Assembly (NCBI RefSeq): GCF_009208585.1
Contig: NZ_WFLN01000010.1
Span: forward strand, 62,001 to 126,000
Direction: 5' to 3'
From: Fluviispira multicolorata
Lineage (GTDB): Bacteria; Bdellovibrionota_B; Oligoflexia; Silvanigrellales; Silvanigrellaceae
Length of the DNA: 64,000 nt
Shown here: positions 47,492 through 54,081 of the stretch, piece after piece
Layout of the letters: every line of letters starts with the position of its first letter
Numbering within the stretch: the first letter of the stretch is position 1
Made by a program: the position numbers and the translations under genes
The notes under the pieces: generated by a model
Database searches by the model: none
Told to the model about the DNA's origin: nothing
The model's input: the letters and a program-made list of their open reading frames with translations, nothing else

Positions 47492-48643
47492 ATGACTAAA
47501 AATAAAAAACTTATTCTTGATACAGTTCAAGAACTTGAAACTGTATTGTCTTTTGACGTGCAAAAATCATTAGGTGACTTTACTTGGAAAGAGAGAGCTC
47601 ACGCAGTTGAAGAAGAAGCAGGAAACTACAAAATCCGCTTTTATTCAGACGGACTTAATTTAACCGCTAAAAGCGCAATTGAAACTGTTATTAAAAATAG
47701 TATTGGAAAAGATATAGAGAACTTTTCAGTTTATTTTGAACGAAAAGAAAAAGCACCTACCCAGCCTCAAAAACAACCAAACACCCCCTCACCCAATCAT
47801 GAACAACATCAGCATACGCAACAGCCAGCACAAAAAGCGGAGATGCGTGCTCCTTCAGGGAAAAAACCCATTTCTGGAGTGAAACGTATTATTGCAGTTG
47901 CCAGTGGTAAAGGAGGAGTGGGTAAAAGTACGGTCAGTGTAAATCTCTCTCTTGCTCTATTCAATCAAGGTTATAAAGTTGGAATTCTTGACGCTGATAT
48001 TTATGGTCCAAGCGTGCCTACAATGCTTAATATTCATAAAGATCCTTTGGTAAATGAAAATAATAAAATCATTCCACCCGAAGCATTTGGTTTAAAAGTT
48101 ATGTCATTTGGTTTTTTTGCACCCGAAGAAACTGCTGTGATTTGGCGTGGGCCAATGATTATGAAAGCATTGCAGCAGTTTTTCTGGGATGTAGACTGGG
48201 GAGAACTTGATTTCCTCATTATAGATCTTCCACCTGGCACTGGTGATGCTCAATTGACTTTAGTACAAAGCATTCCAATAACGGGCGCTGTTATAGTAAC
48301 AACTCCACAAAATGTTGCTCTTCTTGATGCTGTTAAAGGCATTGCAATGTTTAGAAAAACTGACGTCCCAATAATTGGAGTTGTGGAAAATATGTCAACT
48401 TTCTCATGCCCTGCATGTGGAACTGAAACACATATTTTTGGCTCTGGTGGGGCAGATAGAGTTTCTGAAAAATTTGAGGTGCCTGTCTTAGGTCATATCC
48501 CTCTCATTCAAGAAATCCGCTCAGCGGGAGATCTTGGTGAACCTTTAACAACCCTACCTAAACATGATGTCCGCATTCGCTTTGCAGAAATTGCCGAAAA
48601 AGTCGTAAAAAATGCTCTTACAATGGAAAGTAAAAATAAATAA
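47492..48643 (+). CDS. mrp: Mrp/ApbC-family iron-sulfur carrier ATPase
   Basis: The 383-residue protein has a long N-terminal region (about 1-95, degenerate relative to MIP18-type domains), a Gln/Pro-rich linker (about 90-125), then the deviant Walker A SGKGGVGKSTVSVNL near residue 137, LDADIYGPSVPTM and the C-terminal CPACG (Cys-x2-Cys) near residue 308. It binds and transfers [4Fe-4S] clusters, using ATP. The pairing with the Nfu-type gene just upstream fits. Confidence 0.93.
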   Translation: MTKNKKLILDTVQELETVLSFDVQKSLGDFTWKERAHAVEEEAGNYKIRFYSDGLNLTAKSAIETVIKNSIGKDIENFSVYFERKEKAPTQPQKQPNTPSPNHEQHQHTQQPAQKAEMRAPSGKKPISGVKRIIAVASGKGGVGKSTVSVNLSLALFNQGYKVGILDADIYGPSVPTMLNIHKDPLVNENNKIIPPEAFGLKVMSFGFFAPEETAVIWRGPMIMKALQQFFWDVDWGELDFLIIDLPPGTGDAQLTLVQSIPITGAVIVTTPQNVALLDAVKGIAMFRKTDVPIIGVVENMSTFSCPACGTETHIFGSGGADRVSEKFEVPVLGHIPLIQEIRSAGDLGEPLTTLPKHDVRIRFAEIAEKVVKNALTMESKNK

Positions 48644-48650
48644 TTATTAT

Positions 48651-50045
48651 TTATAGAAGACTTTTATTGTAAGAAGGAGACATCACGAAATTTAGAAACC
48701 TTCCAGTACCAGAAATATATTCATAGTTATGCGTAAGTTCAGCGGGAATAAAAACAGATGCTGGACTTTTAATTATTTTAGTTTCATTTCCTAATGTTAC
48801 TTTAACGTTAAGACCAGATCCATCAACATTATTACCCATAAAAACAAAAATGCTATCACAATTATGTGCATGCGTATCGACATGAGGTTCATAACTTCCT
48901 ACATAATCTTCGTGAAAAAGACGTTCAATAATATAAACGGGCGACCTCTCATCCACTCTTGAATCAATATGAACCCAACGATCCCCAACTCCATGTCTAT
49001 GGTATTTCAGCTCAGCAGCTGATTTAACAAACGGATTTCCGACTTTAAATTCATTTGAAAATCTTAATTTACTTTCTCTCACGTATTCTTGCGGCAATAG
49101 TTTTCTTTCATATCCAAATAGCTCTGGAGATAAAAATTCATAAGCCTTATAATTTTTTGAATTTGCTTTTGCATGATATTTTGATGAATGAATAAATGCA
49201 TTTTTACCTACAATGGGTCTATGAGGCTCGGGAATAAAAGTAGATATTCGAGCAACTATATCTTTTAAATATTTAGTTTCTTTAAAGTTAAAACTTACAT
49301 CATCATAAAAATAAGCAAGAGAAGCACTCATTTGAAAGAGATCACAAATTCCTGCTCTTTCACCAATTCCAAGTACGCTCACATCAATAATAGAAGCACC
49401 TGCTTCAATAGCAGAATGTGCATTTGCTAAAGCAAGTCCAAAATCATTATGCAAGTGCACTTCAATTTCACAGTTGAAATTTTTTACTGCGAATTTGACC
49501 ATTTGATAACATTTCTGAGGATTCCAAGCACCCACGGTATCTGCCAAACTCAAACGATCCACACCAGCTTGATTAGTTATTTGTGCTATTTCTTCAATTA
49601 TTTCAAAAGATGTCCTAGAGGCATCTTCAATAGTAAACCTAACTTTTAAACCTAACTCTTTTGCAAATAAAATTGAAGATAAAACCTGTTCCTTTACCCA
49701 CTCTTTTGACTTATTTGTAAATTTAGTTTCTAAAGAAATAGGATTAAATGAAGCCCAAATTCCCACCCAGTTTGCACCTGTATTATGGGCGGATAAAATT
49801 TCTGTTTTACAAGCCCGTGCATGCACTAAAGTTTCCATATTTTTAATTTGCTCACAAACCTTTTTACAAACTTCTTCCTCTAATTGTGAAATACCTGGAT
49901 GTCCTACTTCAATTATATCAACACCAAAACTTTCTAGGTGCTTTGCAATTTCAATTTTTTCTTCAAGTGAAAAACAAACTCCTGAAGACTGTTCCCCTTC
50001 ACGAAGAGTTGAATCGAGTAATTTTATTTTAGTAAGATGCGCCAT
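48651..50045 (-). CDS. HMGL-family (homocitrate/isopropylmalate synthase-like) enzyme fused to a cupin domain
   Basis: The N-terminal 290 residues are a TIM-barrel acyl-CoA condensing enzyme: LLDSTLREGEQSSG near residue 9, EVHLHNDFGLALANAHS (His197, His199) near 195 and GIGERAGICDL near 227. Residues from about 350 to the end are an extra beta-rich part with HVDTHAH (His388, 392, 394) and AELTHNY (His439), a cupin metal-ligand pattern. Normal homocitrate or isopropylmalate synthases do not have this domain. It is the last gene of a four-gene operon, overlapping the hydrolase gene by 17 bases. Likely reaction: acetyl-CoA plus a 2-keto acid, then cupin chemistry; inferred. Confidence 0.85.
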   Translation of the reverse strand: MAHLTKIKLLDSTLREGEQSSGVCFSLEEKIEIAKHLESFGVDIIEVGHPGISQLEEEVCKKVCEQIKNMETLVHARACKTEILSAHNTGANWVGIWASFNPISLETKFTNKSKEWVKEQVLSSILFAKELGLKVRFTIEDASRTSFEIIEEIAQITNQAGVDRLSLADTVGAWNPQKCYQMVKFAVKNFNCEIEVHLHNDFGLALANAHSAIEAGASIIDVSVLGIGERAGICDLFQMSASLAYFYDDVSFNFKETKYLKDIVARISTFIPEPHRPIVGKNAFIHSSKYHAKANSKNYKAYEFLSPELFGYERKLLPQEYVRESKLRFSNEFKVGNPFVKSAAELKYHRHGVGDRWVHIDSRVDERSPVYIIERLFHEDYVGSYEPHVDTHAHNCDSIFVFMGNNVDGSGLNVKVTLGNETKIIKSPASVFIPAELTHNYEYISGTGRFLNFVMSPSYNKSLL

Positions 50046-51069
50046 AATTTTCCTTTTTATTTAGAAATGAAATGATTTCATCAATATAAACTTTTCGATT
50101 ATCTTCATAGATAATCCAATGTGTCGCATTTTTAATAACTATTTCTTTTTTACTTTTAACTCCAGTGAGTTTTTTAAATAATTCTTTATCTGCAAAAATA
50201 TCCTGATCGCCATTTATGACTAAAGTAGGTTGAGAGATTTTTGTAATGTCATAAACAGGGTGATTGGTCCAAATCTGAAAAAGATCTTTCATAGGCCCCA
50301 TCGGTCTTCTTAAAGAACCATGAATTTTAGAGCCACTATCTAAATTTTTATATACTTTTTCAACTGCAAGTAATGAATATTTTGAAACTAAATTTTTTTC
50401 TTGCATCATCATTTTCCAATGTGAATAAATTGCTTCCCATGGGACAATTTGATATGCAGATAAATTATTATTAAATTGATTTTCTTTATCTGCAAATGGC
50501 TTAGTAAACAGAGGTAAGTTAAATGAGTGCATTGCCCCAGTCAAAACTAATTTATTAATTTTTGACTGATTTAATGATGCATATTCCGCAGCAACAATAG
50601 AACCAAAAGACCAACCAATTAAAGAAATATCCTGCACTTTTTTCTGTGCATGAATGTAGTCTATAATAATATTTAATTGCTTTACAGCATCTGCACTCTG
50701 TAAAGGAAAAACCCCTGTTGGAGCTGGAAATATTTGCATTACTTTTGGATAGGTCGATTTTCCCATACCTTCAAAGTCAACACTAAAAACATCAAAACCT
50801 TTTTTTGCTAATTCATCCATGAAAGACAATGATGGAATATCATATGCTTCTCCAGAAGGTATACAAAGAGGAGGAAGTAAAATAACCACTCGCTCTTTTC
50901 TATTTTTCGCATTTCCTTTTTCTATGCTTTTTTCTTTTAAATACAAAGTATTATCTTTTCCATTTTTAATAAAATGGTCAAAAGTTTTAATAGTTTTAAT
51001 GTCAACTGAATATGCACTAAAGAGAATAAATATTTGTAGAAAAGCTAAAGTGTATTTAAAGTAACGCAT
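50029..51069 (-). CDS. Alpha/beta hydrolase with signal peptide
   Basis: The 346-residue protein starts with a hydrophobic leader (about residues 1-20), so it is probably periplasmic or lipid-facing. The nucleophile elbow IGWSFGSIVAAEYAS is near residue 155, the acid in VINGDQDIFADK near 285 and the His in NATHWIIYED near 316. It is an esterase/lipase-like hydrolase. It lies between the second ThiF gene (14-base overlap) and the HMGL-cupin gene (17-base overlap), so it is translated with them and may release or trim the product. Its export is a puzzle for a pathway whose other enzymes look cytoplasmic. Confidence 0.8.
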   Translation of the reverse strand: MRYFKYTLAFLQIFILFSAYSVDIKTIKTFDHFIKNGKDNTLYLKEKSIEKGNAKNRKERVVILLPPLCIPSGEAYDIPSLSFMDELAKKGFDVFSVDFEGMGKSTYPKVMQIFPAPTGVFPLQSADAVKQLNIIIDYIHAQKKVQDISLIGWSFGSIVAAEYASLNQSKINKLVLTGAMHSFNLPLFTKPFADKENQFNNNLSAYQIVPWEAIYSHWKMMMQEKNLVSKYSLLAVEKVYKNLDSGSKIHGSLRRPMGPMKDLFQIWTNHPVYDITKISQPTLVINGDQDIFADKELFKKLTGVKSKKEIVIKNATHWIIYEDNRKVYIDEIISFLNKKENYGASY

Positions 51070-51901
51070 TATCCCATGTTCCTTCCACTGGACTTTCTAC
51101 TTTTACCATATCTGATTTTGCTAAATCTATTTTTACTAATTTCGGAGCATATGTTGGTTGCAAGTTTTCTCTATTTAATATGTATTTTAAAACCTCAAAA
51201 CTAGCTAATAATCCAACAATATTTGCGACAGGACATAAAACAGTCCATGGCGCACTTTTTTCAACAAAAGAATTTGCCCAATCTTCTAAAGCACCAAACT
51301 GAACAGAATTTAATGCTCTTTCATTTTTAATTTTCATAATTTCATTTTTAACGTCTGGAGTCAGCTCCTTATTATATGAGCAGTGCCTTAATACAATTTC
51401 ATACGCTGGAGTTTCATGAGAAAAAGTCATAACCCCACCTCTAAAAGGAGGCGTTACAGCAATCCAGACAGAAGGAATTTGCATTTTTTGTGCTGCTCTA
51501 TGAATAATCACTCTTGTCACAAGATTATCTGTCGCATCGATGACAATCTCGCAATCTTTTAAAAGTTGTTGTGCATTATTTTCGTTAAACATTTCTAAAG
51601 AAACAGTGACATTAATATTTGGATTTATGTCCATGAGTGTTTCTTTAGCGCATTCAGCTTTATACTTTCCAATTCGAGAAACAGAGGATAACATTTGTCT
51701 GTTAATATTACTATATTCAAATTTATCCATATCAATAACATGAATATTTTTGAAACCCATACGTGCTAAAGAAACTAAAGCAATGCCACCGACACCCCCT
51801 GCACCAACAACTGTTACCTTTGAATTTGCAAGTTTTTGTTGTTCTTGCTCAGTAATTACTCCAATATTTCGCATAAAAATTGAATTTTCAATTGCTGTCA
51901 T
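51056..51901 (-). CDS. ThiF/MoeB/HesA-family E1-like adenylyltransferase (paralogue 2)
   Basis: ATG 51901, preceded by GAGG, is the better start, giving 281 residues. GAGGVGG at residues 33-39 is the ATP-binding loop, the Arg finger is Arg11 (MRNIGV), and SNINRQ and DATDN follow. The usual zinc CxxC pairs are absent. Such enzymes adenylate a carboxylate, often the C-terminus of a small protein. It follows the first ThiF gene by 26 bases and shares its unusual middle segment. No ubiquitin-like partner (ThiS/MoaD) is encoded nearby. Confidence 0.87.
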   Translation of the reverse strand: MTAIENSIFMRNIGVITEQEQQKLANSKVTVVGAGGVGGIALVSLARMGFKNIHVIDMDKFEYSNINRQMLSSVSRIGKYKAECAKETLMDINPNINVTVSLEMFNENNAQQLLKDCEIVIDATDNLVTRVIIHRAAQKMQIPSVWIAVTPPFRGGVMTFSHETPAYEIVLRHCSYNKELTPDVKNEIMKIKNERALNSVQFGALEDWANSFVEKSAPWTVLCPVANIVGLLASFEVLKYILNRENLQPTYAPKLVKIDLAKSDMVKVESPVEGTWDNALL

Positions 51902-51927
51902 GATCCACCCTCTAATTATAAGTTTTA

Positions 51928-52791
51928 TTAAATATGAGTTGCTTCCCAATAACCCTTATTTGGGGTTTGTACCGAAACAGGATTTTGTAAATTATCTAAA
52001 TCAATTAAGAGCCCTTTGGGCGCTAATGCCAATGGTGGTTTCCCAATTATAAGCTGAATCACTTCATGGCAGCTAAACGATGCTAAAAGAGAGGCTCGAA
52101 TGGGGGTGATAATCCATCCAACTTTTCCGGAGCAAAAATCGTCTGCCCACTCTTTGGGAGCTCCTTTTTCTACAGAGTAATTTGCTCTTTGTTTCTTTAA
52201 ATTCTGCACAAATTCATGGACGATAGGATCAGATATTTTTTTACCGTGAGTTGGAATATTTAAAGCTGTTTCGTAATCAATTCCATCAGGAACAAAAGTG
52301 GAAACAAACCCTCTATGCGGGGGACTACCTGACATAGATATGCTTGGTATTCCATATTTTTTAGCGGCTCTATGTACGACAATTCTTGAAGGCATATCAT
52401 CTAAAGCTTCGAGCACAACATCATGCCCTTTAATCAATTCATCTACATTTTCTTCTGTTACTTTTATATTTTGAAATGATGTCTTTAAATAGGGGTTAAT
52501 ATCTTTTAAGTACTTTTCAGTTGCATTGCTTTTAGATTCATTAATTGTGGAGCAAAATGCAAGCATTTGTCTGTTTATATTTGAAATTTCAAACGTATCT
52601 GGATCAACCCCACTCAAAGTTCCAATTCCTGCTCGCGCGCAAAGAATGGCTTCCATTCCTCCCACACCACCAAGTCCGAAAATAATGACTTTGCTCTTTG
52701 CAAGCATTTCTTGCTCTTTATGGGTATAGACTCCAATATTTTTTTTGGTCATTTCTGAATAAAAATCATTTTCCGATAAATTAAAAATCAT
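51928..52791 (-). CDS. ThiF/MoeB/HesA-family E1-like adenylyltransferase (paralogue 1)
   Basis: The 287-residue protein has GLGGVGG (residues 39-45), PDTFEISNINRQ near 68 and a DD acidic pair in LEALDDMPSR. At the position of the Arg finger it has Lys (TKKNIGV), which may weaken adenylation. The middle part (EFVQNLKKQRANYS ... EWADDF) aligns with paralogue 2. It is the first gene of the operon, with GGGAGG just before its ATG. Two such E1-like enzymes in tandem suggest a heterodimer, as in eukaryotic E1 complexes, or successive activation steps; both are inference. Confidence 0.87.
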   Translation of the reverse strand: MIFNLSENDFYSEMTKKNIGVYTHKEQEMLAKSKVIIFGLGGVGGMEAILCARAGIGTLSGVDPDTFEISNINRQMLAFCSTINESKSNATEKYLKDINPYLKTSFQNIKVTEENVDELIKGHDVVLEALDDMPSRIVVHRAAKKYGIPSISMSGSPPHRGFVSTFVPDGIDYETALNIPTHGKKISDPIVHEFVQNLKKQRANYSVEKGAPKEWADDFCSGKVGWIITPIRASLLASFSCHEVIQLIIGKPPLALAPKGLLIDLDNLQNPVSVQTPNKGYWEATHI

Positions 52792-52805
52792 CTTACCTCC
52801 CTTTT

Positions 52806-52817
52806 ATGCAGTTGCAT
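52806..52817. promoter_or_regulatory. Small palindrome upstream of the ThiF operon
   Basis: ATGCA-GT-TGCAT, a near-perfect palindrome, lies 15 bases upstream of the first ThiF start codon and downstream of the -10 box at 52822-52827. Two imperfect direct repeats, 52828-52844 (TTGCAATAGCTTAACTC on the minus strand) and 52851-52864 (TTGCAGCTAAGCTC), lie further upstream. It could be an operator, but the evidence is thin. Confidence 0.3.
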
Positions 52818-52821
52818 ACAT

Positions 52822-52850
52822 AAAATAGAGTTAAGCTATTGCAAACACAA
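52822..52850 (-). promoter_or_regulatory. Putative promoter of the ThiF/HMGL-cupin operon
   Basis: On the minus strand TTGTGT (52850-52845), a 17-base spacer and TATTTT (52827-52822). The spacing is right but both boxes are partial. The spacer itself overlaps one of the direct repeats (52828-52844), which would suit a repressor site. Confidence 0.35.
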
Positions 52851-52914
52851 GAGCTTAGCTGCAACAAAATGTTTCAGGAGTTGTTACTTTTTTTGATTAT
52901 AACGCAAATAAAAT

Positions 52915-54081
52915 TCAACCTGCACGAGAAGTTTTCATCACAGATTGGCTTGGAAAGTTTTTTTGTTGTTTTAATTGATAAGCTAAAATAGCTTCAAATA
53001 ATCTTTTAGATAAATTTTGATTTTCAAACTCCACCCCTATACACCACTCACCTGATTCAGAGCTGGTCCATGAAATTTTTCCTACCATAGATTGTATGCG
53101 ATGAGTTAAATCTTTTTCTACTACTTTTTTCTTTGTTACATTTGATAATGTCGATAATGATGAACTCTTTTTTTGTAATTTTTTTCCTTTTGCAACAGAG
53201 GTTTCTTCTTTTAAATTACTCTTTTTAATTTTTTCCTGTGAGATAGGAAATCCTTCTGCAATATTTGGAATATGAGATATTTTTGAAATTTCAAGAACAC
53301 TTCCACTTTCAATATCAGAATGAGACGGTAATTTTAATGTAACAGAACTTCCTGATGAAATAATATCCATGCTTGCTAAAAGTAAATTCCAATCGGTAAG
53401 CCCCGATTTTCCATGTTTACTTGGCTTTAATTTAACCCCACTCAATGAACAATCTTCAATCACTCCACAAAAATAAATTGGAATGGGCGTTGTCACTTCT
53501 TTCTTTCCTTTTACGATTTTTTTATCTTTTGCATTTTTGTCAACTTTTTTTATTTCTTTTGTTTTTTTTGCGCCCCCCTTTACATCAGTTTTTTTGCTTT
53601 TTTGTGGCAACAAAATCTGCTGAAATGCAACTACGCTTTCATTTTCAAGCAGCACCTCAGCAAAGACAGGTAAATGACAGGAAACCCTTTTTTGCGCACG
53701 CGCTTTAACTTCACAAAAGCGTTGGGACACAGCAATAACAACTTCCGGGTTTACAGGTTTTTTAAGCCAGCTCTGGCAATCTGCATAGGGATGTAAGGAT
53801 GTCTCGATAGAGTGCACAACCTCAGGTCTGTCAAAGGCCGTAATTAAAATTGGGGTTTCATATAACTTTTTAAGTAGCAATGCAGTTTTTGCACCGTTCA
53901 AGTCTGGTAGGTCAAAATCAATGACAAAAGCATCAACGCCTTCACTGCATTTAGCGAGCTGAAGGGCCTCTTCTGAGGTTTTAGCGACGAGAACTTGTAT
54001 TCCTGGATAGTAATCTTTAAAAACTTCGCTGGTCATCACAAGGCTTGCTTTGCTTGAATCGGCAATTAAAATTTTTTTCAC
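52915..54081 (-). CDS. Receiver-PilZ protein with Lys-rich linkers
   Basis: The start is GTG at 54081, with GGGAG eight bases before. The 388-residue protein has an N-terminal receiver-like domain (about 1-122) with Asp55 (VIDFDLPDLNG) and Lys in SWLKKPVNP; the first acidic pocket is ADSS and is reduced. A PilZ pattern follows: Arg128-x3-Arg132 and DCSLSG at 210-215, both c-di-GMP-binding elements, separated by a Lys-rich linker (161-196). Another Lys-rich stretch lies near 290-335, and the C-terminal GVEFENQ fits a PilZ end. It probably links c-di-GMP to a phosphorelay; inferred. Confidence 0.75.
   Translation of the reverse strand: MKKILIADSSKASLVMTSEVFKDYYPGIQVLVAKTSEEALQLAKCSEGVDAFVIDFDLPDLNGAKTALLLKKLYETPILITAFDRPEVVHSIETSLHPYADCQSWLKKPVNPEVVIAVSQRFCEVKARAQKRVSCHLPVFAEVLLENESVVAFQQILLPQKSKKTDVKGGAKKTKEIKKVDKNAKDKKIVKGKKEVTTPIPIYFCGVIEDCSLSGVKLKPSKHGKSGLTDWNLLLASMDIISSGSSVTLKLPSHSDIESGSVLEISKISHIPNIAEGFPISQEKIKKSNLKEETSVAKGKKLQKKSSSLSTLSNVTKKKVVEKDLTHRIQSMVGKISWTSSESGEWCIGVEFENQNLSKRLFEAILAYQLKQQKNFPSQSVMKTSRAG

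Follow-up and report, generated by a model that had tools for sequence, protein, structure and literature searches.

The described enzymes closest to the protein reported here are the fungal and archaeal homocitrate synthases (LysS/Lys4, TIGR02146), NifV and the 2-isopropylmalate synthase LeuA. With the homocitrate synthases it has the barrel fold, the catalytic residues and the Glu/His/Arg signature in common, but it scores below the family cut-off, its post-barrel domain is shortened, a cupin is added and no lysine-pathway genes were recognised nearby. NifV is the nearest unfused group besides a plasmid protein of Cereibacter sphaeroides in a barrel tree built without fungal and archaeal homocitrate synthases; it differs in carrying D/W/S at positions 16, 75 and 136 and no cupin, and the protein stays below the NifV cut-off as well. 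LeuA shares the HMGL barrel and the catalytic His and Tyr, but bears a D/L/E signature and ends in a LeuA_dimer tail instead of a cupin. The added cupin resembles MarH and the non-heme iron epimerase/lyase 7eqk in fold (Z 13.2 and 12.9) and His motif, although these two are stand-alone proteins of 15–17% identity that keep a Glu where the fusion has a Ser.

Two described groups of systems compare with the genes around it. The E1-like pair encoded next to the fusion has the adenylating fold and motifs of MccB, PaaA, TcdA and MoeB/ThiF, but falls below all listed NCBIfam equivalog cut-offs, and no carrier protein or peptide was recognised beside it. The cystargolide and belactosin beta-lactone pathways, according to the available text of PMC11408123, combine an isopropylmalate-synthase homologue with a carboxyl methyltransferase, ATP-dependent activation and an esterase. 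The clusters described here resemble that logic by analogy only (PMC11408123, as available); the cassette of the window has E1-like enzymes and lacks a methyltransferase, and the word cupin does not occur in the main text of that paper. The available part of PMC11427300 contains none of the terms sought for the beta-lactone idea. In a literature search largely confined to papers outside subscription journals, no description of the fusion or of an E1/E1/hydrolase/fusion cassette was recognised.

The window, a stretch of 64,000 nucleotides from Fluviispira multicolorata (contig NZ_WFLN01000010.1), encodes a homocitrate-synthase-like barrel and a C-terminal cupin as one chain (Table 1), and the opposite strand of this gene is closed by many stops. 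A preliminary description of the DNA had proposed such a fusion with a canonical HMGL barrel and a cluster of cupin-like residues, His388, 392, 394 and 439. Position, barrel and residue numbers all proved right, with the gene on the minus strand, and since the same fusion recurs in several phyla it is due neither to chance nor to an assembly error. Behind the barrel, the HCS_D2 domain covers the first 38 of 82 model positions; the remainder is absent and is followed by a variable linker and then the cupin. The C-terminal part thus replaces a LeuA-type or HCS-type tail, as had been supposed. Barrel and cupin are both seen in a predicted model of the full-length protein (mean pLDDT 79.3), in which residues 272–295 and 316–333 have pLDDT values below 50, so that the orientation of the two domains is not fixed by the model. 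Both folds are already known; their joining is a new architecture.

Table 1 Features of the fusion gene and its cassette in the window
Feature	Position	Strand	Basis
Fusion gene, 464 aa	48651..50045	minus	ORF with ATG start; Pfam and NCBIfam; relatives
HMGL barrel, residues 6-260	49266..50030	minus	PF00682, E 1.4e-64
Shortened HCS_D2, residues 278-315	49101..49214	minus	PF22617; alignment with NifV and LeuA
Cupin domain, residues 338-464	48654..49034	minus	AF2 model, fold matches, invariant columns
H388-V-D-T-H392-A-H394-N-C-D397-S398 motif	48852..48884	minus	alignments
H439, third predicted metal-binding His (cupin motif 2)	48729..48731	minus	MarH alignment; invariant
E1/ThiF-like enzyme A, first cassette gene	51928..52791	minus	PF00899, E 7.4e-37
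E1/ThiF-like enzyme B, TTG start as listed	51056..51949	minus	PF00899, E 4.5e-53
Alpha/beta hydrolase, 346 aa, GWSFGS nucleophile motif	50029..51069	minus	PF00561, E 4.8e-21

Membership of the barrel in the HMGL-like superfamily is clear (PF00682, 218.5 bits against a cut-off of 29). The best NCBIfam model is the homocitrate synthase TIGR02146 with 296.2 bits, short of its equivalog cut-off of 413.55, which five of five relatives also failed to reach. Scores were again too low for NifV (TIGR02660, 267 against 462.9 bits) and for LeuA (TIGR00973, 199.2 against 598.7 bits; no LeuA_dimer match in Pfam), and indeed for every LeuA, NifV, LysS and CimA model listed. A Foldseek search with the whole full-length model returned the homocitrate synthases 6ktq and 3ivs as best matches. 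Invariant among 16 aligned sequences are R15, E16, E46, H75, R136, E140, H197 and H199, of which E16, H75 and R136 agree with the homocitrate synthases in the PDB alignments and make up the LysS/Lys4 signature; its Arg is the residue that we take, from Lys4 structures, to hold the far carboxylate of 2-oxoglutarate. The unfused Cereibacter relative shares these three residues. The catalytic H291 and Y302 are present in 13 of 13 rows of the NifV/LeuA alignment, and the shortened HCS_D2 retains them together with H286. The barrel is hence homocitrate-synthase-like while passing no curated family cut-off, which refines the earlier comparison with homocitrate/isopropylmalate synthases in general.

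For the cupin, residues 329–464 were predicted with AF2 together with 15 relatives. The model (mean pLDDT 89.9, pTM 0.82) is a beta-sandwich of eight strands, and its best Foldseek matches are MarH (E 1.2e-6) and 7eqk. VIA-align superimposed it on MarH with a Z of 13.2 (118 aligned residues, 2.9 Å), followed by the epimerase/lyase 7eqk (12.9), the lyase DddK (12.4), KdgF (11.3) and a long tail of other cupins at a Z of about 10; dioxygenases and oxalate decarboxylase are among the lower-ranked matches. A family profile likewise found MarH (6j4b, E 0.004) and 7eqk (E 0.011) among PDB sequences. In the window protein itself Pfam recognises nothing in this part of the chain, but Cupin_2 was found in eight of 16 family members (best E 3.3e-4). 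The structure prediction that the preliminary description had called for thus gave a cupin-superfamily fold with clustered His residues.

The sequences of the domain are densely conserved. H349, R350, R356, R363, R375, H388, D390, H392, H394, D397, S398 and H439 are invariant in all 16 aligned sequences, four Arg and the four His named above among them. Invariant columns make up 41 of 127 positions in the cupin (32%), 51 of 270 in the barrel (19%) and seven of 62 in the linker; the mean pairwise identity is 56.8% for the cupin and 48.7% for the barrel. Cupins carry a motif 1 of the form HxH(x)3-4E plus a motif 2 His, and the metal site of MarH consists of three His and one Glu. In the sequence alignment with MarH both His of the HxH and the later His match, but Ser398 occupies the Glu position in 16 of 16 rows, and the site therefore differs from the three-His-one-Glu site of MarH. 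Going by these alignments, the cupin is predicted to hold a three-His metal site of H392, H394 and H439. C396 is also invariant in the 16 sequences, but it is Val in the partial sequence from a Planctomycetaceae metagenome-assembled genome (MAG; L022) and is hence unlikely to be an essential ligand.

The fusion family is rare and its distribution sporadic. A search of genome contigs with the single full-length protein as query found nothing, while the C-terminal alignment gave 56 pattern matches, 16 of them relatives. These come from MAGs of Neisseriaceae and other Pseudomonadota, two Oscillatoria, a Paenibacillaceae MAG, Xenorhabdus stockiae, Kitasatospora, four Streptomyces, Mangrovihabitans and the Planctomycetaceae MAG. 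With tblastn, one full-length relative was found on plasmids, in Pseudomonas aeruginosa (41.8% identity over 99%). Together with the window and the genomes G005 and G694, this makes 20 loci in Pseudomonadota, Actinomycetota, Cyanobacteriota, Bacillota, Planctomycetota and the window's own group. Barrel and cupin lie on one frame at 19 of them; the twentieth (L022) starts at a contig end, where the cupin alone is visible, and the copy in G694 has an altered tail near its contig end. Among 1231 genomes sampled from four phyla, centre genomes not counted, the fusion occurs once (0/291, 1/397, 0/295 and 0/248), and in the window's own family in two of 14 genomes, both from its own genus (2/8).

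A barrel tree with 36 rows places the 19 fused sequences together with the unfused Cereibacter protein in one starred group (100/99). The preliminary description had proposed a phylogeny against LeuA, NifV and AksA; NifV rows are the nearest kin of the group and LeuA rows stand apart, the tree having been calculated without AksA, fungal and archaeal homocitrate synthases, Re-citrate synthase and phosphonomethylmalate synthase. A cupin tree of 19 rows divides into two clades (100/98), one from a four-gene cassette and the other from NRPS-type clusters, and the barrel tree has the same main split. The two domains were therefore inherited together; most likely the fusion event preceded the split and the domains have stayed together since. 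The Cereibacter row is nested inside the fused rows (p-AU 0.018 for fused rows held together without it), which suggests that this protein lost its cupin, but the row sits on a long branch.

In the first clade, the fusion gene is the last of a cassette of about 4.1 kb encoding ThiF-like enzymes A and B, an alpha/beta hydrolase and the fusion, all on the minus strand in the window, with consecutive genes overlapping by 22, 14 and 17 bases at the listed starts; an ATG 16 codons inward is an alternative possible start for enzyme B. This set of four genes is conserved in order and strand at nine loci, namely the window, G005, four loci from Neisseriaceae and one Pseudomonadota MAG (L008–L011), L012 and the two Oscillatoria, in which a DUF441 gene lies between (Pfam-named in one of the two). 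The Paenibacillaceae locus L015 was rejected as a further case, its two upstream genes being polysaccharide deacetylases and not ThiF. Both ThiF-like enzymes belong to the ThiF/E1 superfamily (PF00899; 180.3 and 127.2 bits, cut-off 28.1) and share 36% identity. At nine of nine loci both keep the E1 glycine loop, the Arg of SNxNRQ, the Lys and the Asp, the loop and the Arg motif of enzyme B reading GxGGVGG and SNINRQ. MoeB, ThiF, TcdA, PaaA and MccB are among the PDB relatives of enzyme B. For the hydrolase there was no PDB relative at E 1e-5. Its N-terminus is hydrophobic and the Oscillatoria version has an apparent lipobox, read by eye, so it probably acts outside the cytoplasm. An MFS-type transporter adjoins the cassette at L008, L009 and L011 (Pfam-named in L009 and L011).

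The cassette occupies a variable site. In four of four relatives checked (G002, G003, G006 and G007), the flanking genes for an Mrp-like protein and a response regulator are present and the cassette is absent, leaving a gap of about 20 bases in G007 and of about 1.0–1.2 kb in the other three; unrelated small ORFs lie in the gap in the two of these larger sites that were inspected. A promoter scan gave promoter-like sites not above shuffles (25 against 24.4), and the GC profile across the cassette showed nothing striking. The interval between the Mrp-like and response regulator genes as such (window 47492–54081; L092–L095) varies in gene content from species to species within the genus and may therefore be an integration hot spot.

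The second clade comprises the loci from P. aeruginosa, Xenorhabdus, G694, the actinobacteria and the Planctomycetaceae MAG. Neighbouring genes encode, variously, AMP-binding and carrier domains, condensation and thioesterase domains, PhyH and TauD oxygenases, methyltransferases, asparagine synthase and MFS transporters. Asparagine synthase is found at seven of nine loci (L006, L016–L023; rough gene calls) and an AcnA-like aconitase at six of six actinobacterial loci (gene calls; two Pfam-named). Adenylating or ATP-dependent carboxylate enzymes thus occur here also, and in both clades the condensing enzyme is accompanied by ATP-dependent carboxylate chemistry. A literature search turned up no known product for the clusters of P. 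aeruginosa, Xenorhabdus or Streptomyces. The G694 cluster closely resembles that of Xenorhabdus; in Xenorhabdus and G694 (L016:5310–6183 and L036:7757–8398, respectively) the PhyH gene is 213 aa long, compared with 292 aa in P. aeruginosa, and in L016 a second PhyH-related piece follows it. The AMP-binding gene of the P. aeruginosa cluster (NZ_CP131792.1, L006:17124–17462) has merely 112 aa, and a Mu-like prophage (Mor, GemA, Gam, DDE transposase) starts directly after it, so that this copy looks interrupted. The Planctomycetaceae cluster is followed downstream by two GmrSD-type restriction proteins (PF03235; L022:4768–8986), which lie side by side and are perhaps a defence pair. The unfused barrel of C. 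sphaeroides lies in a small plasmid cluster (NZ_CP051473.1, L074:9769–17326) with a radical SAM protein, a methyltransferase, a PLP enzyme, a methyltransferase-like protein assigned by eye (no Pfam match) and an asparagine synthase 42% identical to a Streptomyces one; no stand-alone cupin was found beside it within a 24.9-kb stretch.

Taken together, the fusion, the paired E1-like enzymes and the hydrolase point to an undescribed small-molecule pathway. Our preferred reading, to which we hold tentatively, is that the protein is a bifunctional enzyme, forming a homocitrate-like acid and then altering it by metal-assisted proton abstraction before its carboxylates are activated. Family and active-site residues suggest that the barrel would condense acetyl-CoA or another acyl-CoA with a 2-oxo dicarboxylic acid, e.g. 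2-oxoglutarate, to a homocitrate-like tertiary alcohol. From its fold neighbours and conservation, the metal-site cupin may then remove a proton beside a carboxylate, resulting in dehydration, isomerisation or epimerisation without an iron-sulfur aconitase. The cassette suggests a third step, in which the two E1-like enzymes would convert carboxylates of the product into adenylates ready for ring closure or coupling, while the alpha/beta hydrolase, probably outside the cytoplasm, might finish or detoxify the compound. Processing of the condensation product by the cupin is favoured because the domain is highly conserved and its fold neighbours are lyases and epimerases; the top ones, MarH, 7eqk and DddK (functions as given in the structure titles), act by proton abstraction. 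Several points speak against this bifunctional reading. A cupin fold in common does not define a reaction, the motif Glu is Ser, unlike in MarH, and three-His cupins include oxygenases. Cereibacter keeps the barrel, the methyltransferase-like gene and asparagine synthase with no cupin match on the fetched stretch. A cupin dehydratase would moreover be redundant at the actinobacterial loci, since all six have the AcnA-like aconitase. A stronger version is doubtful: a homocitrate-type synthase would hand its tertiary alcohol to an iron-sulfur-free cupin dehydratase or isomerase and so head a four-gene pathway free of NRPS and PKS, in which the two E1-like enzymes activate the carboxylates towards a new class of exported small molecules (e.g. 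a strained lactone or a cyclic anhydride). If the cupin does act on the condensation product, it would offer a metal-cupin alternative to aconitase-type chemistry, and the part played by paired E1-like enzymes in making small molecules could be tested with a single four-gene stretch.

The replacement of the motif Glu with the three His kept is also what could be expected of an oxygenase with a three-His site for non-heme iron or another metal, which would oxidise the condensation product, for instance by oxidative decarboxylation or hydroxylation, cysteine dioxygenase and Dke1 both being three-His cupins. Further Fe/2-oxoglutarate oxygenases (PhyH, TauD) are encoded at other loci, so that oxidation is part of the second-clade pathways. 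Since the closest folds by Z are epimerases and lyases, and no obvious reductase or other oxygenase is encoded in the window cassette, we consider an oxygenase less likely. The position of the cupin, which is that of the allosteric domain when compared with a LeuA-like protein from the same genome (L037), and the weak match of two of 16 members to AraC_binding (best E 0.047) would fit a non-catalytic domain for ligand sensing (allostery) or assembly in place of the LeuA-type regulatory domain. Feedback domains are usually the faster-changing part of an enzyme, whereas here identity between the two clades is higher in the cupin (46.1%) than in the catalytic barrel (37.5%), and the cupin is densely set with invariant His, Arg and Asp; a purely sensory or structural role is therefore also less likely. 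A housekeeping role, in which the protein would be a plain isopropylmalate or homocitrate synthase working in leucine or lysine metabolism and its tail would not matter, fits the '2-isopropylmalate synthase' annotation in the public record of the P. aeruginosa plasmid, but can practically be set aside in view of the failed curated cut-offs, the other LeuA-like gene of the genome, the sporadic distribution even within the genus and the lack of recognised leucine or lysine genes beside the window gene. A distinct enzyme and two types of gene cluster are thus hidden under a housekeeping name.

Elsewhere in the same genome (contig C4, 623850–624995; L038:850–1995), an ORF of 381 aa combines the first half of an HMGL barrel (residues 4–146) with the second half of a class I/II aminotransferase (residues 134–373); it is an odd chimera or else the remnant of a deletion.
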